Source: a virus. From it: 64,000 nt of DNA. Of this stretch, positions 3,351-48,579 are shown piece by piece. How positions within the stretch are numbered: the first letter of the stretch is position 1; each line of letters starts with the position of its first letter. Below the pieces are notes generated by a model. The model saw only the letters and a list, made by a program, of their open reading frames with translations. It was not told the origin of the DNA and ran no database searches. The DNA lies in IMG/VR virus record IMGVR_UViG_3300045996_002640, positions 1-64,000 of that record. One strand, written 5' to 3'. The translations under genes were made by a program, and so were the position numbers.

Positions 3351-3490
3351 GGCGCGCACCTGGTCCCGAAGGGGTTCGCCTCGCCAGACGCGCATGGCGG
3401 GGCTCCACGCTCGCCCAGGGCGACCCAGGCGACCAGAGTCGCCCAGGCCAGCACCGCGAGCACCAGGCCCAACGTCGCGCGGCGATTCAT
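3347..3490 (-). CDS. Small membrane protein, 47 residues
   Basis: The ATG at 3490 overlaps the stop of the 3487-3819 gene. After MNRR come about 20 hydrophobic residues (Leu, Val, Ala, Trp), then a short polar tail with two cysteines. This is a single membrane segment or an uncleaved signal anchor with a positive-inside N-terminus. The frame fills an otherwise empty gap between two coupled genes, which supports it. Confidence 0.6.
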   Translation of the reverse strand: MNRRATLGLVLAVLAWATLVAWVALGERGAPPCASGEANPFGTRCAP

Positions 3491-3819
3491 CGGAGGACCT
3501 TGTTCAAGAATTCGATCGCGGCGTCGATCGAATTCCGGTCGTCCTTCACCAGCTCCAGGGTCACGTACGCGAGGTTCCCGCTCAGGACCTCAACCCCGAC
3601 CGCAAAGTTCGCCGAGGGCTGACCGGCCATCGCCATGTGGACCTGCGAGGCGACCGCGTACGCCGCCGCGGCCATCGGGTGGTAGCCATCCCGGCCCGCC
3701 TTGGGCGCCGAGATCTTGATCTGCGGGGTCGTCGTGCCGTAGCGGCTCGTGCCCTTGATCGCCTCGAATCGCATGCCGACCGTCATCACCTTCGCAACCT
3801 GCTCGATAATCGCGTTCAT
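3487..3819 (-). CDS. Hypothetical protein, 110 residues, operator-controlled
   Basis: This is the first gene after promoter module 3870-3898. Its leader carries GAGGAGCTCACG before ATG 3819. The protein is a mixed alpha/beta fold with amphipathic helices at both ends and no recognised motif. It heads a chain of coupled small genes running to 2678, so one regulated promoter probably drives the whole chain. Confidence 0.7.
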   Translation of the reverse strand: MNAIIEQVAKVMTVGMRFEAIKGTSRYGTTTPQIKISAPKAGRDGYHPMAAAAYAVASQVHMAMAGQPSANFAVGVEVLSGNLAYVTLELVKDDRNSIDAAIEFLNKVLR

Positions 3820-3869
3820 CGTGAGCTCCTCGCTCGCCGGCGGCCGCCTTGGCCGTCCTGACGTCCCTA

Positions 3870-3898
3870 CTCTTAGTGCCAGCGCGGCACTAAAGCAA
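3870..3898 (-). promoter_or_regulatory. Promoter-operator module 1 (class B)
   Basis: On the minus strand: -35 TTGCTT, a 17-bp spacer holding TAGTGCCGCGCTGGCAC, and -10 TAAGAG followed by TAGGGACGTCAG. The spacer dyad GTGCC...GGCAC is the shared operator half-site pair. It drives the gene ending at 3487. Confidence 0.8.
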
Positions 3899-3921
3899 CA
3901 CCTGTTTTCGAAGAATCGACC

Positions 3922-3941
3922 GGGGGGCCCCTCGGCCCCCC
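3922..3941 (-). terminator. GC hairpin after the 3954-4205 gene
   Basis: An 8-bp stem GGGGGGCC/GGCCCCCC with a four-base loop lies just past the stop at 3954 and just before promoter module 1. GAATCG...CGATTC extends the stem. There is no strong U-run, so termination efficiency is uncertain. Confidence 0.6.
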
Positions 3942-3953
3942 GATTCTGGGTCC

Positions 3954-4205
3954 TCAGGCCTTTTCGGCGAATAGGCGCTGCAACCGAGCCAGGGCCGGGA
4001 CCTTCTGCAGCGCTTCGGCCAGCGCCGCGCGAGCCGTGTCGCCTCCGCCGAGGTAGGACGCGTCGCCCGCCTTGAGGCGGGTCGCCAGGGTGACCCGGGC
4101 CGCGTAGCCGCAGCGCGGGTTCAGGGAATCGACCGGCGCGATTCGGACGTCGCCGCCGCTTGCGGTGATCGCCTCGATCGCATCGAGCAGCATCTCGTCG
4201 GTCAT
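3954..4205 (-). CDS. Hypothetical protein, 83 residues
   Basis: ATG 4205 overlaps the TGA of the upstream gene (ATGA). The protein is small and Ala/Leu rich, with a central beta-type segment and a C-terminal helix. It is the last gene before the hairpin at 3922-3941. No family recognised. Confidence 0.65.
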   Translation of the reverse strand: MTDEMLLDAIEAITASGGDVRIAPVDSLNPRCGYAARVTLATRLKAGDASYLGGGDTARAALAEALQKVPALARLQRLFAEKA

Positions 4206-4555
4206 CGTGCCCCCCGCGGCTTGATCTCGGCGCGCCAGGTCCAGGGCACCATCTGCTCGCGTGGCCCGTCCTGGCCGTCCAGCGCGAGCATCAAGGCGAC
4301 GTCGCCCAGGGCCTCGACCTCGGCTTCGGCCATCGCGTCCGCGTCCTCGACCAGGCCATCGGGCTCCAGGTAGACCGCGAGGCGGTAGCCCCACCGGTTC
4401 ATGCCGGAATTCTCGATCCGGGCGCTCAGGTTCATCTCCTGGGCCGCCGCGTGAGACTCGAGCATCCCGCCGATTGCCTCGGCGAGCTCAGGCCGGTTGC
4501 ACAGAATCCGGTTCTCGTCCTCGAACAGAATCGCTTCCAGTTTCAGTGTCGTCAT
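4202..4555 (-). CDS. Hypothetical acidic protein, 117 residues
   Basis: Start ATG 4555 has GAGGAAG nine bases upstream, just after the GGCC-TTCG hairpin. The sequence is acidic, with alternating strands and a helix rich in Ala, Glu and Asp around residues 65-90. There is no operator module in front of it, so it is probably read through from the 4855 promoter or has an unseen one. Function unknown. Confidence 0.65.
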   Translation of the reverse strand: MTTLKLEAILFEDENRILCNRPELAEAIGGMLESHAAAQEMNLSARIENSGMNRWGYRLAVYLEPDGLVEDADAMAEAEVEALGDVALMLALDGQDGPREQMVPWTWRAEIKPRGAR

Positions 4556-4578
4556 CTGGTTCTTCCTCGGTTGGGGTG

Positions 4579-4598
4579 GGGGGCCCGAAGGCCCCCCG
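4579..4598 (-). terminator. GC hairpin with tetraloop
   Basis: A perfect 8-bp stem GGGGGGCC/GGCCCCCC is closed by TTCG on the transcript strand, between the stop at 4605 and the start at 4555. It lacks a U-run and may attenuate or protect the transcript end. Confidence 0.6.
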
Positions 4599-4604
4599 GG
4601 CCGC

Positions 4605-4802
4605 TCAGCGCTTGCTGACCAAGACCTCGAATTCGGTCCCGTCCGCCAGGCGAAGGACGAAGCCTTCGGCGCGCTCATCGCCCTCATGAACGATGGTTCG
4701 GGTCCGGCATTGAACCAGCTCGTCCATCTCGGCGAGGTCGTCCGTCGTGATCGACCCGTCGAAGAGCGCCTTGATCGTCCGTGCCAATTTCGCGTTGTCC
4801 AT
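4605..4802 (-). CDS. Hypothetical protein, 65 residues, operator-controlled
   Basis: I start it at ATG 4802, preceded by AAGGAGCTCGAG; the longer frame upstream is only a read-through of the promoter. N-terminal helices are followed by a beta hairpin (FVLRLADGTEFEVLV). Small early phage proteins are often inhibitors of host enzymes, but nothing here identifies a target. Confidence 0.65.
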   Translation of the reverse strand: MDNAKLARTIKALFDGSITTDDLAEMDELVQCRTRTIVHEGDERAEGFVLRLADGTEFEVLVSKR

Positions 4803-4854
4803 CTCGAGCTCCTTGCTCTGCCGCGCGGCCGCCTTGGCCGTGCTGACAAGAGAC

Positions 4855-4883
4855 ACCTTAGTGCCAGGCTGGCACCATTGCAA
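4855..4883 (-). promoter_or_regulatory. Promoter-operator module 2 (class A)
   Basis: TTGCAA, 17-bp spacer containing the perfect dyad GTGCCAGCCTGGCAC, then TAAGGT and GTCTCTTGTCAG on the minus strand. Leader GGCCAAGGCGGCC and AAGGAG follow before ATG 4802. Confidence 0.85.
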
Positions 4884-4907
4884 CTCCTTCGTTTGAGAAT
4901 CGACCGA

Positions 4908-4923
4908 GCCCCCCGAAGGGGGC
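4908..4923 (-). terminator. GC hairpin after the 4934-5239 gene
   Basis: Stem GCCCCC/GGGGGC closed by a short loop between the stop at 4934 and promoter module 2. No U-run follows. Confidence 0.55.
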
Positions 4924-4933
4924 CCGCCCCGGC

Positions 4934-5239
4934 TCAGTAGTCCTCGCCCTGGATCTGAACCGAGCACCCCGGCGAGGCCTTGAGCTCCTCGACCGAGACC
5001 AGGCCGTTCAGGCCGGCGAGCGCGCGGCCGGCGTACTCGGGGTCCCAGAAAAAAGAGATCTCGTTCTCGCCCTCGTCGTCGCTCGCCACGACGCTCAGAC
5101 CGAACGCGTCAATGATCACCATCCCGCCGAGCTCGCCCACCTGGCACTCGCCGATCAGCGGGGCCGAGCCGTCGGGGAAAGACGTCGCACCCGCGAACCC
5201 ATACCAGTCGGTCTTTGAAAACGGCTTCATCTGGATCAT
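4934..5239 (-). CDS. Hypothetical protein, 101 residues, operator-controlled
   Basis: ATG 5239 is chosen because AAGGAGG lies six bases upstream; a second ATG nine bases later is possible. The protein is beta-rich with an acidic middle segment (EGENEISFFWDPEY) and reads like a small single-domain protein. It stands alone between its own promoter and a hairpin. Function unknown. Confidence 0.65.
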   Translation of the reverse strand: MIQMKPFSKTDWYGFAGATSFPDGSAPLIGECQVGELGGMVIIDAFGLSVVASDDEGENEISFFWDPEYAGRALAGLNGLVSVEELKASPGCSVQIQGEDY

Positions 5240-5289
5240 CGTGGCCTCCTTGGCCGCCGCGGGCCGCCTTGGCGCCGCTGACAAGAAAC

Positions 5290-5318
5290 ACCTTAGTGCC
5301 AGGCTGGCACCATTGCAA
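5290..5318 (-). promoter_or_regulatory. Promoter-operator module 3 (class A)
   Basis: TTGCAA, 17-bp spacer with GTGCCAGCCTGGCAC, TAAGGT, then GTTTCTTGTCAG on the minus strand. It drives the gene starting at 5239. Confidence 0.85.
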
Positions 5319-5341
5319 CTCCTTCGTTCGAGAATCGACCA

Positions 5342-5357
5342 GGCCCCCGAAGGGGCC
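5342..5357 (-). terminator. GC hairpin after the 5368-5559 gene
   Basis: Stem GGCCCC/GGGGCC around a four-base loop directly after the stop at 5368 and before promoter module 3. Confidence 0.55.
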
Positions 5358-5367
5358 CTCGGCCACC

Positions 5368-5559
5368 TCACCGCTGAGCCTGCCGCGCTGCTTGATACTC
5401 GACGTCGGTCAGCGCGCGAACCGGCGCGTAATTGGCGAACCGCTTCGAGTAACTACGCGCCCGATTCTCCGCCGAGGCGAGAGCACGTGCCCCGCCAAAG
5501 TATACCAACCGCCCGGTCTCGGGGTCGCTGCCTACGATGCGAAAGGGATAGTGCTTCAC
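5368..5559 (-). CDS. Hypothetical protein, 63 residues, operator-controlled
   Basis: A GTG start with AAGGAGCCCTCAC upstream. The protein is basic and aromatic, beginning MKHYPFRIVGSD, with a Tyr/Arg-rich helix in the second half. It is a one-gene cassette between promoter module 4 and a hairpin. No family recognised. Confidence 0.6.
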   Translation of the reverse strand: MKHYPFRIVGSDPETGRLVYFGGARALASAENRARSYSKRFANYAPVRALTDVEYQAARQAQR

Positions 5560-5610
5560 GTGAGGGCTCCTTGCCGGTCGCCGGCCGCCTTGGCCGTGCT
5601 GACAAGAAAC

Positions 5611-5639
5611 ACCTTAGTGCCAGGCCGGCACCATTGCAA
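5611..5639 (-). promoter_or_regulatory. Promoter-operator module 4 (class A)
   Basis: TTGCAA, 17-bp spacer with GTGCCGGCCTGGCAC (one change in the left arm), TAAGGT, then GTTTCTTGTCAG on the minus strand. It drives the gene starting at 5559. Confidence 0.85.
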
Positions 5640-5661
5640 CTCCTTCGTTTGAGAATCGACC

Positions 5662-5679
5662 GGGGGCCCCGAGGCCCCC
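5662..5679 (-). terminator. GC hairpin after the 5691-5930 gene
   Basis: Stem GGGGGCC/GGCCCCC with a four-base loop between the stop at 5691 and promoter module 4. Confidence 0.55.
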
Positions 5680-5690
5680 CGCGCCGGCGC

Positions 5691-5930
5691 TCAGCTCCAG
5701 AAAACCACCGCGCATCCGAGCCCGCGCGCGCCCTGGACTCCCCATGCGCGCATCTCGCCCGCAAGCTCCTCGGCCGCTTCCTCATCCTGGCAGAGGAGCT
5801 TGCCGTCCTCGGCGCCAACCACCCGAGCGTCCGTCGCCGGGCTGTAGGTCAGGTTCGCACCGTAAAGCACGATCTTCATCGTGCCGGTCTCGGAATCCGT
5901 CGTGATCTTCTGGGCGTTGATCTTGCTCAT
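5691..5930 (-). CDS. Hypothetical protein, 79 residues, operator-controlled
   Basis: ATG 5930 has AAGGAGCCACCCG upstream; the longer frame is a read-through of the promoter. Beta strands come first, then a Glu/Ala-rich helix and a hydrophobic C-terminus ending CAVVFWS. It is a single-gene cassette. Function unknown. Confidence 0.6.
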   Translation of the reverse strand: MSKINAQKITTDSETGTMKIVLYGANLTYSPATDARVVGAEDGKLLCQDEEAAEELAGEMRAWGVQGARGLGCAVVFWS

Positions 5931-5982
5931 CGGGTGGCTCCTTGCCTCGTCGGGGGCCGCCTTGGCCGCCCTGACAAGAGAC

Positions 5983-6011
5983 ACCTTAGTGCCAGGTAGG
6001 CACCAACGCAA
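5983..6011 (-). promoter_or_regulatory. Promoter-operator module 5 (class A)
   Basis: TTGCGT, 17-bp spacer with GTGCCTACCTGGCAC, TAAGGT, then GTCTCTTGTCAG on the minus strand. It drives the gene starting at 5930. Confidence 0.8.
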
Positions 6012-6031
6012 CTTCTTTTTCTGAGAAAGGT

Positions 6032-6056
6032 GGGGGACCCCCGAAGGGGCCCCCCG
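6032..6056 (-). terminator. GC hairpin after the 6064-6363 gene
   Basis: On the minus strand GGGGGGCCCC, TTCG, GGGGTCCCCC can form overlapping G/C stems, followed by ACCTTTCTC. It lies between the stop at 6064 and promoter module 5. Confidence 0.55.
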
Positions 6057-6063
6057 GTTGGGG

Positions 6064-6363
6064 TCAGCCGGCGTGCGGATCTTCCTCGACCTCGAAGCCG
6101 AAGATCTCCGCGATGTCGCCGAGCGTCTGGTCGATCACCTTGATGTGGTCTTGCGTGAAGACCGGTTCAAAGCTTGCGTCCTCGCGCTCGATCTCGACCC
6201 GGAATCTCCAGGGCGAGTCCTGGTCGTTCACCTTGGTGAGCTTGGGAACCAAGCCGTGATCCGAGACGCCCCGCACGAAGCAGATCATCCGGAACACAAC
6301 CTCGGCTTCCTCGAGTGCCTCGGTGTAGACCGCGAACTCACCCTTGGCCAACTTGCCTTTCAT
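6064..6363 (-). CDS. Hypothetical protein, 99 residues, operator-controlled
   Basis: MKGKLAKGEF opens the protein; a Glu-rich helix and beta strands follow, and the end is very acidic. GGAGG lies well upstream, with AGGCAGAAAAACAGAA before the ATG. It is a single-gene cassette between promoter module 6 and a hairpin. No motif recognised. Confidence 0.65.
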   Translation of the reverse strand: MKGKLAKGEFAVYTEALEEAEVVFRMICFVRGVSDHGLVPKLTKVNDQDSPWRFRVEIEREDASFEPVFTQDHIKVIDQTLGDIAEIFGFEVEEDPHAG

Positions 6364-6438
6364 TTCTGTTTTTCTGCCTTCCTCCGGGCGCCTTGCCCGG
6401 CGTCGCTCGCGGCCACCTTGGCCGCGCTGACGTCCCTA

Positions 6439-6467
6439 CTCTTAGTGCCAGCGGGGCACTAATGCAA
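6439..6467 (-). promoter_or_regulatory. Promoter-operator module 6 (class B)
   Basis: TTGCAT, 17-bp spacer with GTGCCCCGCTGGCAC, TAAGAG, then TAGGGACGTCAG on the minus strand. It drives the gene starting at 6363. Confidence 0.8.
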
Positions 6468-6494
6468 CTTCTTCGTTCGCGAGCCGGTCGATTC

Positions 6495-6686
6495 TCACCG
6501 AGGACTCGCCGTCTCGGCCAGGATCAGAACGACGCCCGCCGATGCCAGAGCCGCGCCGGCCGCCAGAGCGAGCCACCAAGCGCTCGAAGAGTCGGGCCGG
6601 CAGATCTCTCGGAAGGCCCAGGCGCCGCCCCACGAGCCCAGCAGGGCGGCCGCGCGCGCCGCATGGGCGCCCATCTCGAGCTTCAC
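6495..6686 (-). CDS. Small membrane protein, 63 residues
   Basis: A GTG start overlaps the stop of the upstream gene (TGTGA). The N-terminal third is a weakly hydrophobic Ala/Gly/Trp segment; residues about 37-57 are a clear Ala/Leu/Val membrane span. The end is short and polar. It lies last in a coupled run from 7266. A holin-type role is possible but not shown. Confidence 0.55.
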   Translation of the reverse strand: MKLEMGAHAARAAALLGSWGGAWAFREICRPDSSSAWWLALAAGAALASAGVVLILAETASPR

Positions 6687-6991
6687 AGGTCGACCCGTTC
6701 CAGCGCTTCGAACGCGAGGTCGAGCGGCTCGAATTCGGGGATGACCGGTTCCTTGCGAACCGCGCCGGTGAGCGCGTACTCGCCGAGCTCGTTCCGGACC
6801 AGCCGGCCCGCGTTCGTCCAGTACCGGGTCTCGCGCCAAATCCGGAACTCGCTCAGGCCGGTCGCCGCGGCGAGCTCGGGCTCCTTGAGGCCCTGTCCTG
6901 GCTTGCACTCGAAGCCGCGGATCGCCGCCTCGATCTTCTTGATCGCCATCTCGTGCGCGCGGATGGTCCGCTCCGCGATCTTCTTGGTCAT
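6683..6991 (-). CDS. Possible winged-helix protein, 102 residues
   Basis: ATG 6991 overlaps the stop of the upstream gene. A long charged helix (residues 1-35) precedes a segment reading ELAAATGLSEFRIWRE, which has the spacing of a helix-turn-helix, followed by a likely beta wing. The C-terminus is acidic. DNA binding is an inference from this short stretch only. Confidence 0.5.
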   Translation of the reverse strand: MTKKIAERTIRAHEMAIKKIEAAIRGFECKPGQGLKEPELAAATGLSEFRIWRETRYWTNAGRLVRNELGEYALTGAVRKEPVIPEFEPLDLAFEALERVDL

Positions 6992-7266
6992 CGACGTTCT
7001 CCTCGAAGGGCTCGTTCGCGGGCCGCCGCGCGCGCCTGGCGGCGGTCCTGGGCTCGCTTGTTCTCGACCTTGACGATCGCCCGGCAAGCGGCGAGCGCGC
7101 GGTCTCGGGGCATCCCAGCGGCTCGGCCGAGCGCGACCGCGTTCACGTCCTGCTCGCGCTGGAGCTCGGCCTCGATCTCAGCGCGGGTCGCCTCGCGCTT
7201 CTCTTCCTCGCGCGGGCAAACCAGGCGGTCGCAAATTCCCATGTAGTGCGTGCATTCGGCCTTCAT
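6988..7266 (-). CDS. Hypothetical charged protein, 92 residues
   Basis: MKAECTHYMGICDRLVCP gives three cysteines and a histidine near the N-terminus, a possible small zinc site. The rest is a long Arg/Ala/Glu helix ending in a very basic tail. The start is preceded by a GGAGC. It heads a three-gene coupled run and has a dyad element but no operator module upstream. Confidence 0.6.
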   Translation of the reverse strand: MKAECTHYMGICDRLVCPREEEKREATRAEIEAELQREQDVNAVALGRAAGMPRDRALAACRAIVKVENKRAQDRRQARAAARERALRGERR

Positions 7267-7331
7267 CGGGTAGCTCCTACGACCCGAAGCCCGGGGCTCT
7301 CGCCTCCGGGCCGTGCGGGCCGCTGTCGGCC
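7267..7331 (-). repeat. Intergenic hairpin element, copy 1
   Basis: A GC-rich dyad (GCCCGGAGG...CCCCGGGC) with a GAGAGC loop and a terminal CGTAGGAG lies between two genes. Related elements with the same GAGAGC loop and CGTAG/GTAGGA end lie at 8520-8575 and 9358-9421. It stands where other gene pairs have a promoter module. Confidence 0.5.
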
Positions 7332-7568
7332 TCAGCCGCGCAGCCTGCGCCGGCGAGGGATGTGGAGCTCGATTGAGTCGATCGCGCGAAAGAGCGGCGC
7401 CGGCGGGCCGAAGTGCGGGGCGAGCTCGACCACCAGGAGCTGGTAGCGACCGTGCTTGTAGACCCAAGCAGCGGTGCTCTCCTCGTCCGTTTCCGGAAGG
7501 CGGAGGTTCAGGGCCTCGATCTCGCGATTGATTTGGTCGGCTTCGGTCTGGGAAATGATGCGCGCCAT
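7332..7568 (-). CDS. Hypothetical protein, 78 residues, operator-controlled
   Basis: ATG 7568 with AAGGAGCTCAAG upstream. A short helix and a strand-rich centre are followed by a strongly basic C-terminus (IPRRRRLRG). It is the first gene after promoter module 7. The basic tail may bind nucleic acid; no family recognised. Confidence 0.65.
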   Translation of the reverse strand: MARIISQTEADQINREIEALNLRLPETDEESTAAWVYKHGRYQLLVVELAPHFGPPAPLFRAIDSIELHIPRRRRLRG

Positions 7569-7618
7569 CTTGAGCTCCTTGCTCGCCGCGGGCCGCCTTG
7601 GCCTCGCTGACAAGAAAC

Positions 7619-7647
7619 ACCTTAGTGCCAGGCTGGCACCATTGCAA
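7619..7647 (-). promoter_or_regulatory. Promoter-operator module 7 (class A)
   Basis: TTGCAA, 17-bp spacer with GTGCCAGCCTGGCAC, TAAGGT, then GTTTCTTGTCAG on the minus strand. It drives the gene starting at 7568. Confidence 0.85.
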
Positions 7648-7658
7648 CTCCTTCGTTC

Positions 7659-7688
7659 GAAAAAAGAAGGGGCCCATTTCGAGGCCCC
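7659..7688 (-). terminator. Rho-independent terminator
   Basis: Stem GGGGCC/GGCCCC followed by TTCTTTTTT on the minus strand, just after the stop at 7697 and before promoter module 7. It is the best canonical terminator in this region. Confidence 0.8.
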
Positions 7689-7696
7689 GATCCGGC

Positions 7697-7918
7697 TCAG
7701 CGCTTGCGGTTCCAGCGCCGCCGCGTGACCTCGCGCCATCGGTCGATCATACGATGAACGCTCCGGAGATGGATGCCCATCAGCGGCGCCGCATGGGTCC
7801 GGTTGTCGCCGCAAGCCTCGAGGGCCATCCGGACGTAGTTCCGGTCGACCTCCTCGAGGGTCGGGTCGATGAGCTCGACCCGGCGGCCCTTGATCTCGAT
7901 CGTGACCTTGATCTTCAT
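7697..7918 (-). CDS. Fis-type HTH protein, 73 residues
   Basis: After a beta-type N-terminus (MKIKVTIEIKG), residues about 28-65 read YVRMALEACGDNRTHAAPLM then a second helix, the layout of the Fis/NtrC C-terminal helix-turn-helix (HTH_8). Such domains bind DNA as dimers. It overlaps the upstream gene by ATGA and ends at a strong terminator. It is one candidate regulator for the operator modules, though Fis-type sites usually look different. Confidence 0.65.
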   Translation of the reverse strand: MKIKVTIEIKGRRVELIDPTLEEVDRNYVRMALEACGDNRTHAAPLMGIHLRSVHRMIDRWREVTRRRWNRKR

Positions 7919-8145
7919 CGGGCGGCCGTCTTGATGTAGAGAGGCGAGAGAATCCCCACGCTGTAAGCCAGCGATTTGAGAGCGCGCTCTCGAGCGTGAT
8001 ACCAATCCAGCCGGGCGAAACAGGCCTCCGCATCACGCGCGCAAAGCTGCGCACTGCTATGCATCGGGCGGTTCGCGAGCTCGGCGAGCTCGGCTTGAAT
8101 CCGAGCAACCCGCATCGTTTCGTAAGCTTGAGCTTCGGTCACCAT
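7915..8145 (-). CDS. Hypothetical helical protein, 76 residues, operator-controlled
   Basis: ATG 8145 with AAGGAGGCCTCCAAG upstream. Almost wholly helical and Ala-rich, with two cysteines in the middle (residues near 35-43). It is coupled to the Fis-like gene downstream, so both are under promoter module 8. Confidence 0.6.
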   Translation of the reverse strand: MVTEAQAYETMRVARIQAELAELANRPMHSSAQLCARDAEACFARLDWYHARERALKSLAYSVGILSPLYIKTAAR

Positions 8146-8198
8146 CTTGGAGGCCTCCTTGGCCGTCGGGCGCCGCCTTGGCGTCCCTGACAAGAATC

Positions 8199-8228
8199 AC
8201 CTTAGTGCCGGGCTTGGCACTAATGCAA
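8199..8228 (-). promoter_or_regulatory. Promoter-operator module 8 (class A, 18-bp spacer)
   Basis: TTGCAT, an 18-bp spacer with GTGCCAAGCCCGGCAC (two central bases instead of one), TAAGGT, then GATTCTTGTCAG on the minus strand. It drives 8145. Confidence 0.8.
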
Positions 8229-8237
8229 CTCCTTCGT

Positions 8238-8519
8238 TCAGAAAAACGACCGGATCGATTCCAGCGCCGCTTCGGCCTCAAACTGGTCGTCCCAGATGTA
8301 GCCGATCGAGTCCTTGGCCGGCGGGTTCTCGAGCCTGAGCGCAGCGCGCTCGGCGGTCCAGAGACGGTCGTCGCCGATCTGGTAGCCGCGGTAGCTCGGG
8401 CTCGGGCGCTTCGCCTGAGCAGCGAGATCGAGCCGGGAACCGAGGAGCTCGAAGCCCTCGTCGCATTCCCAGCCGATCCGCCAGGCGCCGAAGAAAGGGA
8501 CCAGGATCGGGGGGTTCAT
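8238..8519 (-). CDS. Hypothetical protein, 93 residues
   Basis: MNPPILVPFFGAWRIGW opens the protein, followed by a helix, a loop and a C-terminal amphipathic helix ending in Phe-Phe. It follows the hairpin element at 8520-8575, with CGTAGA before the ATG and a weak ribosome-binding site. Probably read from promoter module 9 together with the 8576-8773 gene. Function unknown. Confidence 0.6.
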   Translation of the reverse strand: MNPPILVPFFGAWRIGWECDEGFELLGSRLDLAAQAKRPSPSYRGYQIGDDRLWTAERAALRLENPPAKDSIGYIWDDQFEAEAALESIRSFF

Positions 8520-8575
8520 TCTACGACCCCAAGCCCGCCGAGCTCTCGCCGGGCGGGCCGTTGGGGGCAGGGCTC
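8520..8575 (-). repeat. Intergenic hairpin element, copy 2
   Basis: On the minus strand CCCCAA-CGG-CCCGCC pairs with GGCGGG-C-TTGGGG around a CGGCGAGAGCTC loop, ending in GTCGTAGA. It closely matches the copy at 9358-9421. Confidence 0.6.
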
Positions 8576-8773
8576 TCAGCGTAGGGCCTGCAGCCGAGCT
8601 TCGAGCTCGCGCACCAGGTTATCCCGGGTGCGTGCCAAGGCCGCCGTGCTTGGCCGTGCAGCCTTGTGGAAGGCAATCGCCATCTCGAGCCGCTCGATCC
8701 GCTGCTTGCGAGCAGCCTCACCGCCAGCCGCCAGCTCCGCCTTCTCGTTCGCGATCTTGTTCGAGTAGTCCAT
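8576..8773 (-). CDS. Hypothetical helical protein, 65 residues, operator-controlled
   Basis: ATG 8773 with AAGGAGCTCAAG upstream. It is highly charged and Ala/Glu/Arg rich throughout, most likely one or two long helices forming a coiled coil. It is the first gene after promoter module 9. Confidence 0.65.
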   Translation of the reverse strand: MDYSNKIANEKAELAAGGEAARKQRIERLEMAIAFHKAARPSTAALARTRDNLVRELEARLQALR

Positions 8774-8823
8774 CTTGAGCTCCTTGCTCGTCGCGGGCCG
8801 CCTTGGCGCCGCTGACGTCCCTA

Positions 8824-8852
8824 CTCTTAGTGCCTCCCTGGCACCATTGCAA
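8824..8852 (-). promoter_or_regulatory. Promoter-operator module 9 (class B)
   Basis: TTGCAA, 17-bp spacer with GTGCCAGGGAGGCAC (half-sites kept, centre changed), TAAGAG, then TAGGGACGTCAG on the minus strand. It drives 8773. Confidence 0.8.
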
Positions 8853-8853
8853 C

Positions 8854-9357
8854 CTATTCGACTGGGGGCTCGGTCGATTTTTGGACCTTGAAGAGCGGCG
8901 ACTTTCGCCAGGCCTCGCCCGCGTCGGGTTCTTCGCCGAGGGTCTCGTAGAGCGCGCGCGCCGCCTTGCCGACCGTCTCGAGGTCGAGCCCGCGAAGAAT
9001 GAGCTCGAAGCCTCCGTCCGCCTCGTCGTACCGGCAATAGGTGTGGCGGACGCCGCGGGTGATCTCGCTCGCCATGATCCGGTTGGCTTCGTGCGCTTGC
9101 TCGCGCGCCTGAGCCTCGTTCTTCTCGCGAGCTCGCTCGATCAAGAGCTCGGCCGCCTTGGCCGGCGTCGTGACCTTGCGACGAGCCTTGCCGGTGCCTG
9201 AGCGGAACACGCCATCTGCGAAATCGAAGTCGAGCCGGCGCACCAAGCGGCCGCTGATTCGAGCGTCCTCGGGGTACTTGCCCTCGACCACCGCGCCTAG
9301 GGTTGCCGCGCGCGTGAGCGCCTCGGTCATGAAATGAACTTCGTCCAGAATCCGCAT
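8854..9357 (-). CDS. Hypothetical protein, 167 residues
   Basis: The N-terminal half is mixed alpha/beta. Residues about 68-98 form a long Ala/Glu helix, and a beta-rich segment with Tyr and Cys follows. The stop lies next to promoter module 9 with no separate terminator. It is preceded by the hairpin element at 9358-9421 rather than a promoter. No family recognised. Confidence 0.65.
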   Translation of the reverse strand: MRILDEVHFMTEALTRAATLGAVVEGKYPEDARISGRLVRRLDFDFADGVFRSGTGKARRKVTTPAKAAELLIERAREKNEAQAREQAHEANRIMASEITRGVRHTYCRYDEADGGFELILRGLDLETVGKAARALYETLGEEPDAGEAWRKSPLFKVQKSTEPPVE

Positions 9358-9421
9358 CGGGTCCTCCTACGGCCCGAAGCCCGCCGAGCTCTCGCCGGGC
9401 GGGCCGTTGGGCTCGCGCGTC
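9358..9421 (-). repeat. Intergenic hairpin element, copy 3
   Basis: CCCAACGGCCCGCC pairs with GGCGGGCTTCGGG around a CGGCGAGAGCTC loop, ending in GTAGGAGG just before ATG 9357. The final GGAGG is the ribosome-binding site of that gene. Confidence 0.6.
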
Positions 9422-9619
9422 TCAATTGCTGAGGCCGGCGAGGTTCCGGTCGATGATGTGGGTCCCGTAGAGCGGGCTCCAGCTCGCGGCGAGCTCGCCA
9501 TTCGCGGTCTCGATCCGCGCTTCGTAGCCGCGCTTCTTGGCAGCCTTGATCGCGCTCGCGAACGTCTCGGCCTGGATCGGCTGGTGAAAGTCGAAGTTCT
9601 GGCTCTTCACTACGAACAT
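9422..9619 (-). CDS. Hypothetical protein, 65 residues
   Basis: MFVVKSQNFDFHQP starts the protein; strands alternate with one Ala/Lys helix. AAGGAGCCCAGC lies before the ATG. It is the first intact gene after promoter module 10, about 220 bases downstream, with a long structured leader between. Confidence 0.6.
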   Translation of the reverse strand: MFVVKSQNFDFHQPIQAETFASAIKAAKKRGYEARIETANGELAASWSPLYGTHIIDRNLAGLSN

Positions 9620-9837
9620 GCTGGGCTCCTTGCCTTTCGAACCGGGCCCGCCTTGGACCCCGGTACCGCCTAAGGCCCGGGTCCGCGCGTCCGCGGCCCG
9701 AGCCCTTGCCTCGGTTGTTCGCCCCTGCGCTGGCTTCCCCGAGGCTTCGGGGCCGGCGCTTACGTTGGCGATCTCAGTCTATCGTGGGTGAGCTCCTTGC
9801 TCGCCGGGCGGCCGCCTTGGCCGTCCTGACAAGTGAG
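9620..9837 (-). other. Long leader or gene-less cassette
   Basis: Immediately after promoter module 10 comes the usual leader (GGCCAAGGCGGCC, then GCAAGGAGCTC), but no ATG follows at the expected place; the reading is ACG ATA GAC TGA. Two GC hairpins follow (CCCCGAAGCCTCGGGG and a longer dyad), then a second AAGGAG before ATG 9619. It looks like a cassette that has lost its gene, or a leader that regulates the next one. Confidence 0.5.
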
Positions 9838-9866
9838 ACCTTAGTGCCAGGCTGGCACCATTGCAA
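9838..9866 (-). promoter_or_regulatory. Promoter-operator module 10 (class A)
   Basis: TTGCAA, 17-bp spacer with GTGCCAGCCTGGCAC, TAAGGT, then CTCACTTGTCAG on the minus strand. The stop codon of the upstream gene is the TAA inside the -10 box. Confidence 0.85.
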
Positions 9867-10434
9867 CTCCTTCGTTCGCTTTTTTCTCGAAGGCCTGGTT
9901 TCGCCGGATTACCGCGAGAACCCGCTCGTAGGTCCCGAGCCTCATCTCGGTCTGATCGAACTTGGCGTCGCATCGCCCGCGCGCGTACCCGATGATCGAG
10001 CCGCGAGCCGAGCCGCAGCGCCTGTGCGCCTCGCTGACGCGCTCCGCCGCGAGCAGGGCGGCGTTCGTGGTGGGCCCGAGCTCGAGCCCGGACAAGCCAG
10101 CCCAGGCCTCGGCGCTGAGCCTTCCCTGCTTGAGCTGCCAGACCGAGCGCGAGGTCCAGACGATCAAGCCACGCCGGCGCGAGGGATCACATTCGTCCTT
10201 TGCGCACTGGCCCGCATGGACGCGCCGGTTGAACCGGCTCTCCCACATCCCTTGCATCACCAGGAACGCGGCGAGCTCCTCAGGCGAGCGCTTCCAACTC
10301 GGGGTCTGGTGCGCCGCGGTCGTAATCGCGATTGCGATCGTGGTCATTCGCTCGTGCCGCCCGACCTCGGCCTTGTCTTGGTACCAGGGTTCGAGCGCGA
10401 GCAGCACAGTGAGAACGGCTTCGACGAAAGTCAT
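9841..10434 (-). CDS. Possible lysozyme-like / lytic transglycosylase protein
   Basis: 197 residues from ATG 10434, which overlaps the upstream stop. A hydrophobic N-terminal helix is followed by a segment containing MWESRFN, a Cys-containing loop and RSVWQLKQG, reminiscent of the goose-type/SLT fold with its catalytic Glu. The last ten codons run through the next operator and end in VAMVPAWH. The enzyme assignment rests on these short resemblances. Confidence 0.45.
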   Translation of the reverse strand: MTFVEAVLTVLLALEPWYQDKAEVGRHERMTTIAIAITTAAHQTPSWKRSPEELAAFLVMQGMWESRFNRRVHAGQCAKDECDPSRRRGLIVWTSRSVWQLKQGRLSAEAWAGLSGLELGPTTNAALLAAERVSEAHRRCGSARGSIIGYARGRCDAKFDQTEMRLGTYERVLAVIRRNQAFEKKANEGVAMVPAWH

Positions 10435-10811
10435 GGGCTCGAGCTCGTAGCATGCTGAGGCACCTCGGGTAGCGAGATCGCTTTCACGCACACCACTTCC
10501 CAGCCGAAACCAAGAACCGGAGTCCCTCCGTTCCGTCGACACGCGGGCATCAAGAATGCCTTTCGTCGCTCGATCTCGTCAGTCTCGGCTTTCGCTTTTG
10601 CCGAGCTCGCATTCAGCTTCTCGATCGACTGATCGAGCGAGTGGTTCGCCTTCTCGAGCTCAGCCTCCAGCGCGCGCCGCGAGCGCTGGTACTCGGCTTC
10701 CGAAGCCAGGTACTCGGGGCTCGGCTCGGTAAGCATCTCGCCCGCCATCCATCCGACGATCACCATCGCCGCCGCTGCGCCAATCCAGATCACCACGTTT
10801 TCGCCGTTCAT
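10431..10811 (-). CDS. Membrane-anchored coiled-coil protein, 126 residues
   Basis: One N-terminal membrane span (residues about 6-24) is followed by a long Glu/Ala/Ser/Lys heptad helix (residues 35-85) and a Cys-containing C-terminal domain. It is coupled on both sides by ATGA. The layout resembles an inner-membrane spanin such as Rz, and the neighbour at 9841-10434 may be a lysozyme, but the position inside the regulated region is unusual for lysis genes. Confidence 0.55.
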   Translation of the reverse strand: MNGENVVIWIGAAAAMVIVGWMAGEMLTEPSPEYLASEAEYQRSRRALEAELEKANHSLDQSIEKLNASSAKAKAETDEIERRKAFLMPACRRNGGTPVLGFGWEVVCVKAISLPEVPQHATSSSP

Positions 10812-11026
10812 TCTTCCGACCCTTCTCGTCTCGGTAGTTTCGCCACGTCGTTCACCGGCACGCCGCGTCGGCGCACCTCATCGGCTGCGTCATCGAGCCT
10901 CGGGTGCCAGCCGGTCTGCACCGCGTGGCCATCGACCACGATCCGGAACTCGGTCCGGTACCGATGGCCTGAGGACCAGGGGTCCGGGTGAGCTGTCGTC
11001 ACCCGGTATTCGACCACCGGATTCAT
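10808..11026 (-). CDS. Hypothetical protein, 72 residues
   Basis: ATG 11026 overlaps the TGA of the upstream gene. The protein starts MNPVVEYRVTT, has several strands and a short Asp/Glu/Arg helix, and a TGWHPRLDDA segment resembling small phage surface-exposed domains. No family recognised. Confidence 0.6.
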   Translation of the reverse strand: MNPVVEYRVTTAHPDPWSSGHRYRTEFRIVVDGHAVQTGWHPRLDDAADEVRRRGVPVNDVAKLPRREGSEE

Positions 11027-12186
11027 CGCGAGCGGGCCTCCCACATCTTGCGGGCCGCCGCGAGCCAGCGCGCGCGTTCGTCCTTGCCCTTGGGCATCGG
11101 CGAGATCTCGGCGACCTGGAGCAAGAACTCGGAGAAGCCGTCGAGCTCGCTCGCCTCAGGAGCAGGCGCTGGTGATGGCGCGGGGGTTGGCGCCGGCGGA
11201 GGCTCGGGCGCTGGCGGGGGGATCGGAGGCTGCGCCGGCGGAGGCTCGGGCGGAAGCATCGGCACGCGAGTCTCGGCGACCACCTCAGGCGCTGAGCGCG
11301 CGATCGGGACGCCGCCGGCGAGCGCGCTATCCCGGAACCGGATCAGCATCTCGAGCGGCGTCGCTGGCGAGAGCTTCGCGAATTCGATCAGCGTGCGGTC
11401 CGAGGGGAGCGAGAGGCCGAGCTCGATCAGGGAGACCGCCGATTGATTCGGCACGTCTGGACCGAGGAGCTCGGCGAACTCGTGTTGGTAGAACCCGCCG
11501 GTGATCCTGACCATTTTGAAGAGAGATCCGATCTGAGTCGGCACGCGCTGGTACCGCGTGCGCGTTGCGATCGGTGGGCTCTTGCGAGTTGGCTTCGAGG
11601 GCTCGGCTTTCTTGAAGAGCGCACCACCCGCGCGATCGTCAGCCTCGGTGTACTCGGGCTCGATCTCGGCGATGGCCTCGGCGAGGGTGAGCGTCGGAAC
11701 CGTGGACAGTTTCTGGACGACCGCGACCGGCGGGCTCGGCGCGGGCTCGATCACCGGCGCGCGCGGCGGCTTGGTTGGCTTCTGGAAGGGGTATGGCACA
11801 GGCGCCGGCGAGCGATCGGCCTGGACCGGCTCAGGCTTCGGCGCAGGCTTCTTGGGCAAGGGCGGGGCCTTTGCCGGCTCGGGTGCGATGGCGAGCGGCT
11901 CGACCACGCGGAGCTCGGCTTTCTTCTTCTCGAGCTCGGTCCCGATCGCATCGCCCAAGGTCGCGTTCGGCGAGCTCCGGCGCGGGATCCTGACCACATC
12001 GGTGATGTCGTTCCAGCGGTAGAAATCGACCTTGCCGTTGTCCGAGGTCCGGACCATCGCGCCTTTATGCCCGAGCACCGTCACGATCTCGCCATCGACC
12101 GATTTTGGCGTGGTCTGGTTCCGGAACTTGCGCCGGACCGAGACCTTGCGACCAGGCGAAGGGAGGTCGTTCAGTTTCGGTCTCAT
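11023..12186 (-). CDS. Pro-rich protein with a helix-turn-helix-like domain
   Basis: 387 residues. Residues 1-70 look like a small SH3/Tudor-type beta barrel; 80-215 and 325-355 are Pro/Ala/Lys-rich linkers. Residues about 235-300 read GFYQHEFAELLG then VSLIELGLSLPSDRTLIEFA, the pattern of a lambda/XRE-type HTH with recognition helix. The C-terminus is charged. A DNA-binding role is inferred, making it the most attractive candidate in the cluster for a regulator of the repeated operators. Confidence 0.55.
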   Translation of the reverse strand: MRPKLNDLPSPGRKVSVRRKFRNQTTPKSVDGEIVTVLGHKGAMVRTSDNGKVDFYRWNDITDVVRIPRRSSPNATLGDAIGTELEKKKAELRVVEPLAIAPEPAKAPPLPKKPAPKPEPVQADRSPAPVPYPFQKPTKPPRAPVIEPAPSPPVAVVQKLSTVPTLTLAEAIAEIEPEYTEADDRAGGALFKKAEPSKPTRKSPPIATRTRYQRVPTQIGSLFKMVRITGGFYQHEFAELLGPDVPNQSAVSLIELGLSLPSDRTLIEFAKLSPATPLEMLIRFRDSALAGGVPIARSAPEVVAETRVPMLPPEPPPAQPPIPPPAPEPPPAPTPAPSPAPAPEASELDGFSEFLLQVAEISPMPKGKDERARWLAAARKMWEARSR

Positions 12187-12677
12187 GACGCCTCCGCGCT
12201 GAGGAGCAAGTAGACCCGGTGCTTGGCGATCGGGTGCGCGAGGCGCACGACAACCGCGGTGAAATGGAAAGGGTCGCCGTCGGGGTCCCGCTGCGACGCG
12301 CGGACGATTCCCTCGATCTCGATCTCGGTGTTCGGGGGCCTGAGCGCGTTCGGTTCGAGCTCGTCAATCGCATGCGCTGCCGCGTCCTGAGTCAGGAACG
12401 CCGAGGCGTGCGGCGCCTTGCGCTTCTCGAGCTTGGTGTGAGCGTACTCGGCGTCGCCCTCTTGGAGGATCGAGAACGACTTTGCACCAGCGCGAAGCCC
12501 GCGCGCCGCATGGATGGACCGCCCAAGAAGCTCGGCGAGCTGGACGAGTAGATCGTCCGCGTACTCGTAGCCCTCGCGCGCCGCGCGCCGGATACCTTCC
12601 TCGTGCCACACGGTCTCGACCCAGCGATCGAGCGCGCGCGATTGAATGGTGGGGGTGTTCGTGGGTTGCGGGTTCAT
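12183..12677 (-). CDS. Hypothetical protein, 164 residues
   Basis: The ATG overlaps the upstream stop. An N-terminal Thr/Pro stretch leads into helices (residues 15-60), then a beta-rich half ending VYLLLSAEAS. The downstream gene is also coupled (ATGA), so 12856-9841 forms one run of overlapping genes read from promoter module 11. Function unknown. Confidence 0.65.
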   Translation of the reverse strand: MNPQPTNTPTIQSRALDRWVETVWHEEGIRRAAREGYEYADDLLVQLAELLGRSIHAARGLRAGAKSFSILQEGDAEYAHTKLEKRKAPHASAFLTQDAAAHAIDELEPNALRPPNTEIEIEGIVRASQRDPDGDPFHFTAVVVRLAHPIAKHRVYLLLSAEAS

Positions 12678-12856
12678 GATTCCTCGGTCTCCTCTTCGTA
12701 GCGGCCAGGGACAACGATCTCGACCAGCAAGCCGTCCGCGCGCTGGTGAAGCGCTCGGTGGTTGCCGAGCTTCGTGGGTTCGAGCACCGCAAGCTCGCGG
12801 CGCTGAGCGGTCTGCTTCGCCTTGCCGCGGTAAAGGGTGCGCTTGGTTTCGTTCAT
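12674..12856 (-). CDS. Hypothetical protein, 60 residues, operator-controlled
   Basis: ATG 12856 with AAGGAGCTCGCCG upstream. A basic N-terminal half (MNETKRTLYRGKAKQ) is followed by a hydrophobic strand and a Glu-rich tail. It is the first gene after promoter module 11 and leads a long coupled run. Confidence 0.65.
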   Translation of the reverse strand: MNETKRTLYRGKAKQTAQRRELAVLEPTKLGNHRALHQRADGLLVEIVVPGRYEEETEES

Positions 12857-12907
12857 CGGCGAGCTCCTTGCTCGTGGCGGGCCGCCTTGGCGCCGCTCAC
12901 ATCCCTA

Positions 12908-12936
12908 CTCTTAGTGCCAGGCTGGCATTAGAGCAA
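12908..12936 (-). promoter_or_regulatory. Promoter-operator module 11 (class B)
   Basis: TTGCTC, 17-bp spacer with ATGCCAGCCTGGCAC (first base of the left arm changed), TAAGAG, then TAGGGATGTGAG on the minus strand. It drives the run from 12856 downward. Confidence 0.8.
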
Positions 12937-12949
12937 CCGAAATCGGTTC

Positions 12950-12984
12950 AAAAAGAAGGGCCCCCGGGACCTGCCCGGAAGCCC
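12950..12984 (-). terminator. Second of two tandem terminators
   Basis: GGGC...GCCC with an inner CCGGG/CCCGG stem, followed by CTTCTTTTT on the minus strand, directly before promoter module 11. Confidence 0.7.
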
Positions 12985-13021
12985 TGAGAAAGGGGGCCGA
13001 GCCCAGCAGCGGCCGGCCCCC
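12985..13021 (-). terminator. First of two tandem terminators
   Basis: An 8-bp stem CGGCCCCC/GGGGGCCG followed by TTTCTC on the minus strand, just after the stop at 13033. Confidence 0.7.
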
Positions 13022-13032
13022 CTGGGTAGATT

Positions 13033-13461
13033 TCAGCCGCCGGCGACCGCGAGGATCTCGCCGAGCAGCTTGTAGACCAGGCGCTTGGCGTCGAGCTCGC
13101 AGAGATGCGCGAGGTTCGCGGCCATGCTGGTCGAGGTCTCGGACCAGGCGCCCTGCCCGAGGACGCGCTCCTCGATATTCCGGCGGTACTCCTTGGCGAC
13201 CTGGGTGGTGATGTCGAGGACCATCTCCTCGCTCAGCGCCTCGGCGTCGACCGTGCGCTCGGTGATGTCCTGGATATCGGCTCGGATGTTATGAATCAGC
13301 TCGAGAACCGATTCGGCCGCCAGCGCGTCCTTCAAGTACCATTCGACCGAGCGCTTGAGCATGCGAGCGTTTGCGGCGTTCGAGGTGAACTCCTGGATCT
13401 TGTTTCCCGCCTCGATCGCCTTGGTCGCGAACATGTGCTCAATCAATTCAGACTTCTTCAT
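13033..13461 (-). CDS. Hypothetical helical protein, 142 residues, operator-controlled
   Basis: MKKSELIEHM starts a nearly all-helical protein with many charged heptads. AAGGAGCCCCACC lies before ATG 13461. It is a single-gene cassette between promoter module 12 and two tandem terminators, and is the first operator-controlled gene after the endolysin. No family recognised. Confidence 0.65.
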   Translation of the reverse strand: MKKSELIEHMFATKAIEAGNKIQEFTSNAANARMLKRSVEWYLKDALAAESVLELIHNIRADIQDITERTVDAEALSEEMVLDITTQVAKEYRRNIEERVLGQGAWSETSTSMAANLAHLCELDAKRLVYKLLGEILAVAGG

Positions 13462-13512
13462 GGTGGGGCTCCTTGCCTGTCGGGGGCCGCCTTGGCCTCC
13501 CTGACAAGAAAC

Positions 13513-13541
13513 ACCTTAGTGCCTACCTGGCACCAATGCAA
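13513..13541 (-). promoter_or_regulatory. Promoter-operator module 12 (class A)
   Basis: TTGCAT, 17-bp spacer with GTGCCAGGTAGGCAC, TAAGGT, then GTTTCTTGTCAG on the minus strand. It drives 13461. Confidence 0.8.
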
Positions 13542-13564
13542 CCAATTCGTTCGCGAATCGACAG

Positions 13565-14479
13565 TCAGACGATCCGGCCGAGATCCTGCTCCAGCTCAGC
13601 GAACGCCGCCGCGCCGAGGGCCTCGCGCAGGTTCCCTTCCGAGCTCGCCGAGCGGGTGCGGGCCGCCGGCGTCCGGCCTTGCAGGGCCTGGGTCGCCACC
13701 GGAAGCATGGTTGCGAACAAGCGCTTAACGCCTCGGACGTACAAGTCCTTCGAGGCCGTGTAGTAACCCGCGCGGCCGAGCTCGAGAGCGAAGGCCTCGG
13801 CGTCACCGGCGACTGCGGCGCTCCAACTCGCCGCGTACCGATTGTGGCCGTCGCCATCCGAGTCGACCGCGAGGAATCGAACCACGTCGACAGCGCCATC
13901 CGCGGCGCTCGCGAACGCGCGAAAGTGAGTCTGGACGTGCGGGGGGTCGAACCACACCTCTTTGCCGCCGATGATCTCGGAGCAGCGGAACATGGTCTTG
14001 AGACCACGCCATCCCTTGCCGGCCTTCACGTTGCCGAAATTGAAGTTCCAGATCGCGGTCCAGTTACCCGTCTCGAGCGCGCTCTGCGCGAGCAAGCACG
14101 CGAGCATTGCCGGGCTCGGCGGGTCGCCGGTCACTCGCTCGACCGCCTCGATGAACGCGAGCGCCGCCTGCGCTTTGCTGAGCGGGGTCTTCGCCGCGGG
14201 TACGAAGCCGGTCGCCGGGAGCGCGATCGTCGCGACCGGGGTCTCGAACACCTTGCGCGTGATCGGACCGACGATCCCGTCTTGCTTGAGGCCGTGCGCG
14301 CGCTGCAGCTTCTTGACCGCGTACTCAGTCTCGGCGTCGAAGAGGCCGTCGATATTCCCGGGCGTGTACCCGCGCTCGATCAGCGCGTGTTCGAGCGCCG
14401 CGATATCGGGCCCGTTCATGAAGATTCGTAGGACAGAGCGCCAGGTCGAGGGATCGGCGTACGCGGCAGCGGTGGTCAC
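13565..14479 (-). CDS. Endolysin: peptidoglycan-binding plus glucosaminidase-like domain
   Basis: 304 residues from a GTG start. Residues about 22-80 match a PG_binding_1 domain (ALIERGYTPGNIDGLFDAET then VKKLQ..., DGIVGP). Residues 100-265 hold a lysozyme-superfamily domain: AQSALETGNW with a likely catalytic Glu, then NFNFGNVKA, as in phage glucosaminidase/muramidase endolysins. It would cut host peptidoglycan at lysis. No signal peptide is seen, so it probably needs a holin; candidates lie just upstream. The Arg/Ser-rich C-terminus is extra. Confidence 0.85.
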   Translation of the reverse strand: MTTAAAYADPSTWRSVLRIFMNGPDIAALEHALIERGYTPGNIDGLFDAETEYAVKKLQRAHGLKQDGIVGPITRKVFETPVATIALPATGFVPAAKTPLSKAQAALAFIEAVERVTGDPPSPAMLACLLAQSALETGNWTAIWNFNFGNVKAGKGWRGLKTMFRCSEIIGGKEVWFDPPHVQTHFRAFASAADGAVDVVRFLAVDSDGDGHNRYAASWSAAVAGDAEAFALELGRAGYYTASKDLYVRGVKRLFATMLPVATQALQGRTPAARTRSASSEGNLREALGAAAFAELEQDLGRIV

Positions 14480-48501: not shown

Positions 48502-48579
48502 TGGAGGGCTGAGAGGGATTCGAACCCTCGACCTCCGGGTTCATTACGCCCGGCGCTCTACCACTGAGACTACCAGCCC
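48502..48579 (-). tRNA. tRNA with enlarged anticodon loop, CCA encoded
   Basis: Acceptor GGGCTGG/TCAGCCC, T-arm GAGGG TTCGAAT CCCTC and a D-arm are clear, and T-CCA ends the gene. If the anticodon stem is CCGGG/CCCGG, the loop is nine bases (CGTAATGAA) and the variable loop has the normal five. A seven-base loop needs a C-A mismatch and would give anticodon AAT (Ile). The D-arm carries one extra base. Amino-acid identity is uncertain. Confidence 0.8.

Follow-up and report, generated by a model that had tools for sequence, protein, structure and literature searches.

The first 64 kb of the 93.8-kb viral record IMGVR_UViG_3300045996_002640 (IMG/VR; G+C content 65.7%) carry twelve copies of a repeated module in which a promoter-like pair of motifs, an inverted repeat (hereafter the dyad) and a leader sequence follow each other in constant order. 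This stretch of 64,000 nucleotides is referred to as the window, and coordinates are those of the window unless they are assigned to the record. The modules are found on the minus strand between positions 3820 and 13541, upstream of small genes, in a block that forms the downstream end of a leftward gene array; the minus strand carries all predicted genes. Identified structural and replication genes code for a tail sheath, tape measure, major head protein, head protease, portal, terminase, DNA polymerase and DnaB-like helicase, and the combination of a tail sheath with head, terminase, polymerase and helicase genes indicates a contractile-tailed phage. RecA, a DNA methylase and MoxR/VWA proteins are also encoded. 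Comparison with named phages revealed only distant similarity for the terminase and none for the tail sheath.

Organization of the twelve modules

A preliminary description of this region had listed twelve promoter-operator cassettes, and all of them were recovered by a scan for the dyad and by a position weight matrix. Allowing up to three mismatches, the dyad scan returned 17 matches against 3.2 expected and a shuffle maximum of 8. The matrix of the full promoter-dyad module scored the twelve copies at 23-57 bits, while the rest of the 93.8 kb did not exceed 18 bits. In 5' to 3' direction, each module consists of TTGC, 2-3 nt, the dyad, TAAG, 9 nt, GTCAG and a leader ending in a ribosome binding site. 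TTGC and TAAG are present in all twelve copies. The upstream motif had been given as TTGCAN, of which TTGC is invariant and TTGCA is found in only 9/12. The downstream motif reads TAAGGT in eight copies and TAAGAG in four (C3876, C6445, C8830 and C12914), and the spacer between both motifs is 17 bp throughout, with 18 bp in C8205, in agreement with the earlier account. The 9 nt following TAAG fall into two classes (GTGTTTCTT-like in eight copies, AGTAGGGAC/T in four), so that conservation is interrupted at this point; it restarts at GTCAG in every copy, this motif reading GTGAG in C12914. The common leader was likewise borne out, as GCCAAGGCGGCC is exact in ten of the twelve copies and AAGGAG is present in ten. 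The distance from the dyad to the start codon is 57-60 nt in 10/12 copies; it is longer in C6445, and no open reading frame (ORF) directly follows the leader of C9844.

The class 1 copies are C13519 (13462-13541, TAAGGT, with TTGC, dyad, TAAG and the two-hairpin leader described below), C9844 (9784-9866, overlapping the 3' end of the upstream gene), C8205 (8146-8228), C7625 (7569-7647), C5989 (5931-6011), C5617 (5560-5639), C5296 (5240-5318) and C4861 (4803-4883). Class 2 comprises C12914 (12857-12936, TAAGAG), C8830 (8774-8852), C6445 (6364-6467, with a longer leader) and C3876 (3820-3898).

The dyad common to the copies is T[A/G]GTGCC-N5-GGCACTA. The longer form GTGCCAG-N-CTGGCAC of the preliminary description is the commonest one, but it is perfect in only four copies and the shared dyad is shorter. 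Two copies deviate, C12914 by an ATGCC left arm and C8205 by a dyad spacer of N6. The centre is free (AGCCT, GCGCT, CCGCT, TACCT, AGGGA, AGGTA and others), the outer arms are common to all copies, and the half-site centres are 10 bp apart. Fixed arms, a free centre and this half-site spacing are consistent with a dimer bound to one helical face. The proposed location of an operator between -35 and -10 holds insofar as the dyad occupies the spacer; its right arm, however, extends into the supposed -10 motif (TAA).

No significant similarity was detected among the proteins encoded behind the modules, and apart from the helix-turn-helix (HTH) proteins almost none of them matched Pfam or PHROGs. 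Examples on the minus strand are the first genes of C13519 (13033-13461, 142 aa, no relatives found) and C3876 (3487-3819, 110 aa) and the single genes of C5296 (4934-5239, 101 aa) and C6445 (6064-6363, 99 aa), all of unknown function. A layout of one gene plus a hairpin per cassette is strictly followed in five cases only; about nine cassettes have one gene before the first hairpin, and C12914 heads about six genes. Terminator-like hairpins with a T-run, both of canonical type, were identified on the minus strand just upstream of C12914 (12957-12985) and of C7625 (7669-7688), and GC-rich stems without a T-run precede four further modules.

Two additional repeats were observed within the block. 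A degenerate leader copy without promoter or dyad (9623-9664, minus strand; 19 bits, E 0.04-0.15) is situated directly before the ORF at 9422-9619. It marks the end of about 170 nt without an ORF (9620-9787) that extend from the C9844 leader to the next gene and for which a decayed gene or a small RNA are candidate readings. A second repeated element is present in three copies (approximately 9358-9419, 8520-8570 and 7267-7330) inside cassette operons; in it, a long GC hairpin is followed by a GTAG(GAG) sequence and the beginning of a gene, and the dyad is lacking.

A two-hairpin leader

The leader is the best-supported part of the module, and its structure was missed in the preliminary description. 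RNAalifold analysis of the whole module placed, after GTCAG, a bulged-A stem with an AAGGC loop, followed 0-2 nt later by a second hairpin that exposes the Shine-Dalgarno (SD) sequence (AAGGA) in its loop. In single-sequence minimum free energy folds, the bulged-A stem was obtained for 11/12 copies, with a variant in C6445, and the second hairpin for all copies but C8205, where hairpin 1 is kept and hairpin 2 is replaced. Across the alignment, 94.9% of cells in the leader pairs are paired, and five pairs changed on both sides, amounting to 15 two-sided cells. The covariation score was 0.280 as compared to 0.111 for shuffled alignments and was reached by 0/500 shuffles, a test that overstates significance since the copies are paralogous and possibly recent duplicates. 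In slid controls, which retain this kinship, shifting the partner by 1-3 columns reduced pairing to 60% or less.

Compensatory changes are found in both hairpins. Around the SD loop, the stem is formed by GAGC/GCTC, GGCC/GGCC or GGGC/GCCC, for example as GGCC-AAGGA-GGCC in C5296, and C8205 carries compensatory CGCC/GGCG and GGCC/GGCC stems. In the first stem, GTC pairs with GGC or GAC, as opposed to GTG/CAC in C12914, whose GTGAG is matched by CCAC; at the inner pair, C-G stands against G-C in five copies. These changes indicate that the leader is maintained for its own structure and not by homology alone, and the leader is very probably an RNA structure under conservation. Hairpin 2 of C6445 (GGGC-AAGGC-GCCC) is kept upstream of the actual SD sequence, although the start codon is farther away and another SD is used, a hint that its function may extend beyond binding the ribosome. 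A search of positions 3400-14000 against Rfam (cmscan, E up to 1) returned a single match, a weak one to isrB at 4903-4981 that fell short of the gathering score. CsrA-type translational control would involve GGA in hairpin loops, one of them over the SD sequence, and a CsrA protein; an AAGGA loop covers the SD sequence in 10/12 copies, the upstream loop reads AAGGC, and no CsrA protein was found in the record.

Subjected to the same test, the dyad exhibited zero two-sided changes, and it is read as a DNA operator owing to this lack of covariation. It might instead act as RNA, forming a hairpin or a weak terminator or encoding a mini-ORF (M-V-P-x-x-H-stop), given that the 7-bp stem can pair, that class 1 copies were flagged as terminator-like and that several copies present AAGGAG before an ATG and a six-codon frame ending in TAA. 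Compensatory changes are missing, though, and class 2 copies are devoid of a T-run, on which grounds the terminator was rejected; in the mini-ORF, the SD and start are lost in several copies and the residues vary, while TTGC and the dyad stay fixed. The corresponding leader peptide, MVPAWH, was discarded since its SD and start codon are not conserved and its frame is broken in C8205. A function of the dyad at the RNA level is accordingly regarded as improbable.

The modules might also be mainly recombination seams, a spreading promoter-leader unit that served the gain and loss of small genes in the manner of the indel repeats of cluster O mycobacteriophages. The repeats of those phages flank insertions or deletions (PMC4351075), and the genes behind the present modules are unrelated to each other; C9844, moreover, has no gene directly behind it and is followed by the degenerate second leader. 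The compensatory changes argue that the leader was kept for its structure, and a role as a seam could coexist with that of a regulated promoter. As the main function of the modules it appears rather unlikely, if slightly less so than a dyad acting as RNA.

The dyad as a putative operator

A motif search of the full record, proposed with the preliminary description, returned the twelve modules and a thirteenth dyad, TTAGTGCCTCAGTGGCACTAG, at record position 88648, outside the window. Here the dyad is present and the leader is absent, which shows that the dyad can occur independently of the other module parts, as would fit an operator in DNA. The thirteenth copy is flanked by a small gene and by the gene for a 95-aa HTH protein (record 88693-88980); a Fis-type HTH gene (record 88901-89206) lies upstream of it. 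The term “phage-wide” regulon used earlier is nevertheless too strong, as 12 of 13 sites are confined to one 10-kb block.

Both HTH proteins next to the thirteenth dyad are candidate dyad-binding proteins on sequence grounds, as are two proteins encoded within the cassette operons on the minus strand: a 73-aa Fis-type HTH protein in the C8205 operon (7697-7918; HTH_8, 29.2 bits at a cut-off of 22) and a 387-aa protein in the C12914 operon (11023-12186) with a weak Xre-type HTH at 11374-11508 (HTH_3, E 0.003, below cut-off). The C7625 operon additionally contains a gene for a 102-aa HTH-like protein (6683-6991, minus strand; phrog_1368 transcriptional regulator, E 0.006).

A ParB-like domain protein is encoded at record 72560-72904 (72356-72970), and the dyads could in principle represent partition (parS-like) sites. 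Its gene, however, lies next to a gene for a D12 DNA methylase or overlaps with the beginning of it, the scans reported no ParA family, and the sites are located exactly inside promoter-like spacers with a ribosome binding site at fixed distance. Of all the alternatives considered, partition is the least plausible and is given hardly any credence.

The reading that best accounts for the observations, and to which we attach somewhat better than even confidence, is that of a promoter which bears an operator and is fused to a two-hairpin 5' untranslated region. Multiple copies of such a promoter ahead of small genes of unknown function, as first proposed, thus remain the best description. Each copy would be a self-contained expression unit with the promoter TTGCNN-17/18-TAAG[GT/AG] and the dyad within its spacer. 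A promoter is favored by the hexamer-like pair at 17-18 bp, the fixed distance to the start codon, the terminators upstream of some copies and the conserved RNA beginning at the expected transcription start. A dimeric phage DNA-binding protein would probably occupy the dyad and exclude RNA polymerase, so that all units would switch together. Transcription would probably start just before GTCAG, the mRNA opening with the bulged-A stem-loop followed by the SD-loop hairpin, and the leader may set mRNA stability and the translation of unrelated small genes. The same dyad recurs in several predicted promoters at a position that would block RNA polymerase, as is generally expected of a repressor regulon.

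The dyad would more probably be bound by a repressor than by an activator, as it sits in a spacer of already optimal length. The hexamers are weak: TTGCAA/TAAGGT match about 7/12 consensus bases, and a strict sigma-70 consensus scan finds none of the promoters. A phage sigma factor or an activator is therefore possible, and TTGC-N17-TAAG could be a phage-specific promoter class that stays silent until a phage factor is made in the middle or late phase. Apart from the weak hexamers, this proposal draws on a 196-aa protein (record 83325-83915, minus strand) with weak similarity to region 2 of extracytoplasmic function (ECF) sigma factors (PF04542, E 9e-5; CnrH, E 0.003) and on the lack of any coding-strand TTGC-N-TAAG promoter without a dyad, which suggests that both elements act as one unit. 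Conversely, the sigma match lies under curated cut-offs, the 17-18 bp spacer differs from the 19-20 bp of MerR-type activated promoters, and the thirteenth dyad has no -35/-10 pair at the same spacing. Activation or a dedicated sigma factor is consequently a minority view, albeit the most credible of the alternatives to a repressed promoter. A sigma-54 promoter on the plus strand (TGGCAC...TTGCA) was rejected, since its GG-to-GC spacing is 7 instead of 10 and transcription from it would be directed away from the genes.

Besides the weak hexamers and the paralogy of the copies, several results weigh against a repressed promoter. None of the candidates is a proven regulator; for two of them, including the 387-aa protein, the structure models were poor, and a fold search matched nothing. 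No tyrosine integrase or integrase-family protein was found in the record, so that a lysogeny repressor is not assured. No obvious terminator precedes C13519, C9844, C8830, C8205 or C6445. Finally, no relative with the module was found in scans of viral and genome contigs, collections that may omit near relatives, for which reason this absence is not evidence against conservation. Among the tail-sheath relatives G001-G003 (sheath identity 51-57%), the dyad was absent and no comparable repeated module stood out. Twelve viral stretches matching dyad plus TAAG and 69 matching the longer dyad were isolated matches unrelated to the module and had no such leader. The leader-core pattern occurred in 110 viral stretches, as single matches in those listed, and the best of 100 scored with an RNA model reached 29 bits as compared to 50-69 bits for true copies; the genome-contig scan gave four single matches.

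Two stretches of similar layout were encountered in these comparisons. A prophage repressor region (L017, 8500-8700) contains TTGACG, a GTGCC-N5-GGCAC dyad and TAAGGT at the same spacing, adjacent to an Xre-like repressor gene; the similarity is one of layout only and is not taken as evidence of relation. The Pseudomonas gntR-gntK intergenic region (L146, L148) shows the same string layout, TTGCCA-AG-GTGCC-N5-GGCAC-TAAGGT. In P. plecoglossicida, the footprint of GntR begins at TAAGGT and extends over the downstream AGCGCT (PMC12195362), and this position implies that the dyad of that region is not the GntR site; the resemblance was set aside as evidence of kinship and serves as a lead only.

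Further features were observed outside the cassettes. A MoxR-type AAA ATPase and a VWA protein are encoded adjacent to each other in the replication-gene half (record 84560-87089), and a tRNA-Ile with the anticodon AAT, unusual for bacteria, is located at 48502-48579. The palindrome TGGGCGCCCA is present in 17 copies where 0.13 would be expected (window 1438, 2386, 6664, 16615, 22019, 43766, 51022, 54466, 55745, 57844 and 58923; record 64512-79892). Several copies seem to code for an LGAQLD motif that recurs at the C-terminus of small genes, and others are found in unrelated contexts.

Relation to known phage regulons

The preliminary description had likened the modules to phage regulons with a different site and named the stoperators of mycobacteriophages. 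The general comparison holds, but stoperators are not the best match. The stoperator of L5 (cluster A mycobacteriophages) is an asymmetric 13-bp repressor site, GGTGGMTGTCAAG, present in many copies, and stoperators are held to act on elongation and not inside promoters. The modules share with them a repressor-type site in many copies per phage; GGTGGMTGTCAAG itself had 0 matches at up to two mismatches, against 2.0 expected.

The nearest known design is that of the start-associated sequences (SAS) and extended start-associated sequences (ESAS) of cluster K mycobacteriophages (TM4, Pixie and Adephagia). The SAS is an SD-containing 13-mer, 5'-GGGATAGGAGCCC, located 3-9 bp before start codons (PMC3203893), and in Adephagia each ESAS combines an inverted repeat, for which the authors suggest a repressor, with a SigA-like promoter whose motifs are 17-18 bp apart (PMC11373665). 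Common to both systems are repeated units before many small non-structural genes, an inverted repeat, -35- and -10-like motifs 17-18 bp apart and a strongly conserved SD element just before the start codon. The ESAS arms, however, are imperfect, 17 bp long, contain the -35 motif and are 4-14 bp apart, whereas here the arms are 7 bp long, separated by N5 or N6 and contained within the spacer between weak hexamers. The SAS consensus had no match in the window at up to two mismatches. An SD hairpin formed by the SAS was examined in Pixie, Adephagia and TM4 and is not supported, as the flanks vary mostly without compensation: a single compensatory change (Pixie, CGGATAGGAGCCG) contrasts with several changes that are not compensated. 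Among the phages compared, the structured two-hairpin leader thus appears particular to this phage.

Repeated phage elements can form a master-repressor regulon, as exemplified by SPBRE, a 15-bp element of SPbeta that recurs phage-wide in some ten promoter regions, mostly those of unknown genes, and is bound by the single master repressor MrpR (PMC10516654). That system belongs to a Bacillus prophage, its repressor has a tyrosine-recombinase fold, to which the present record offers no counterpart among integrase-family proteins, and no shared structured leader is seen in the available part of the account. Inverted repeats of 17-18 bp also occur in the short intergenic regions of mycobacteriophages of cluster O and Microbacterium phages of cluster EG (PMC4351075, PMC7302621). 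They resemble the dyad in being multi-copy short palindromes before small genes that are presumed to be bound by a dimeric protein; they differ in their palindromes and in that the cluster O sites mostly lie away from promoters, and no common leader is seen in the available parts of these reports.

Repeated-operator phage regulons are known already, and the main new result is the covarying two-hairpin leader. A two-layer regulon can be envisaged, in which a DNA-binding protein would silence the units via the dyad and a second factor, a phage or host RNA-binding protein, would read the AAGGC/AAGGA hairpins and thereby set the translation of a dozen unrelated small proteins; this extension is speculative and, as a whole, doubtful. 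No part of phage genomes is understood less well than the small accessory genes. With around twelve transcription units of a single phage that would share the same switch and leader, their timing and their dependence on a single regulator become jointly testable, and the covarying SD hairpin provides a testable form of the idea that repeated start-associated phage elements do more than bind ribosomes.

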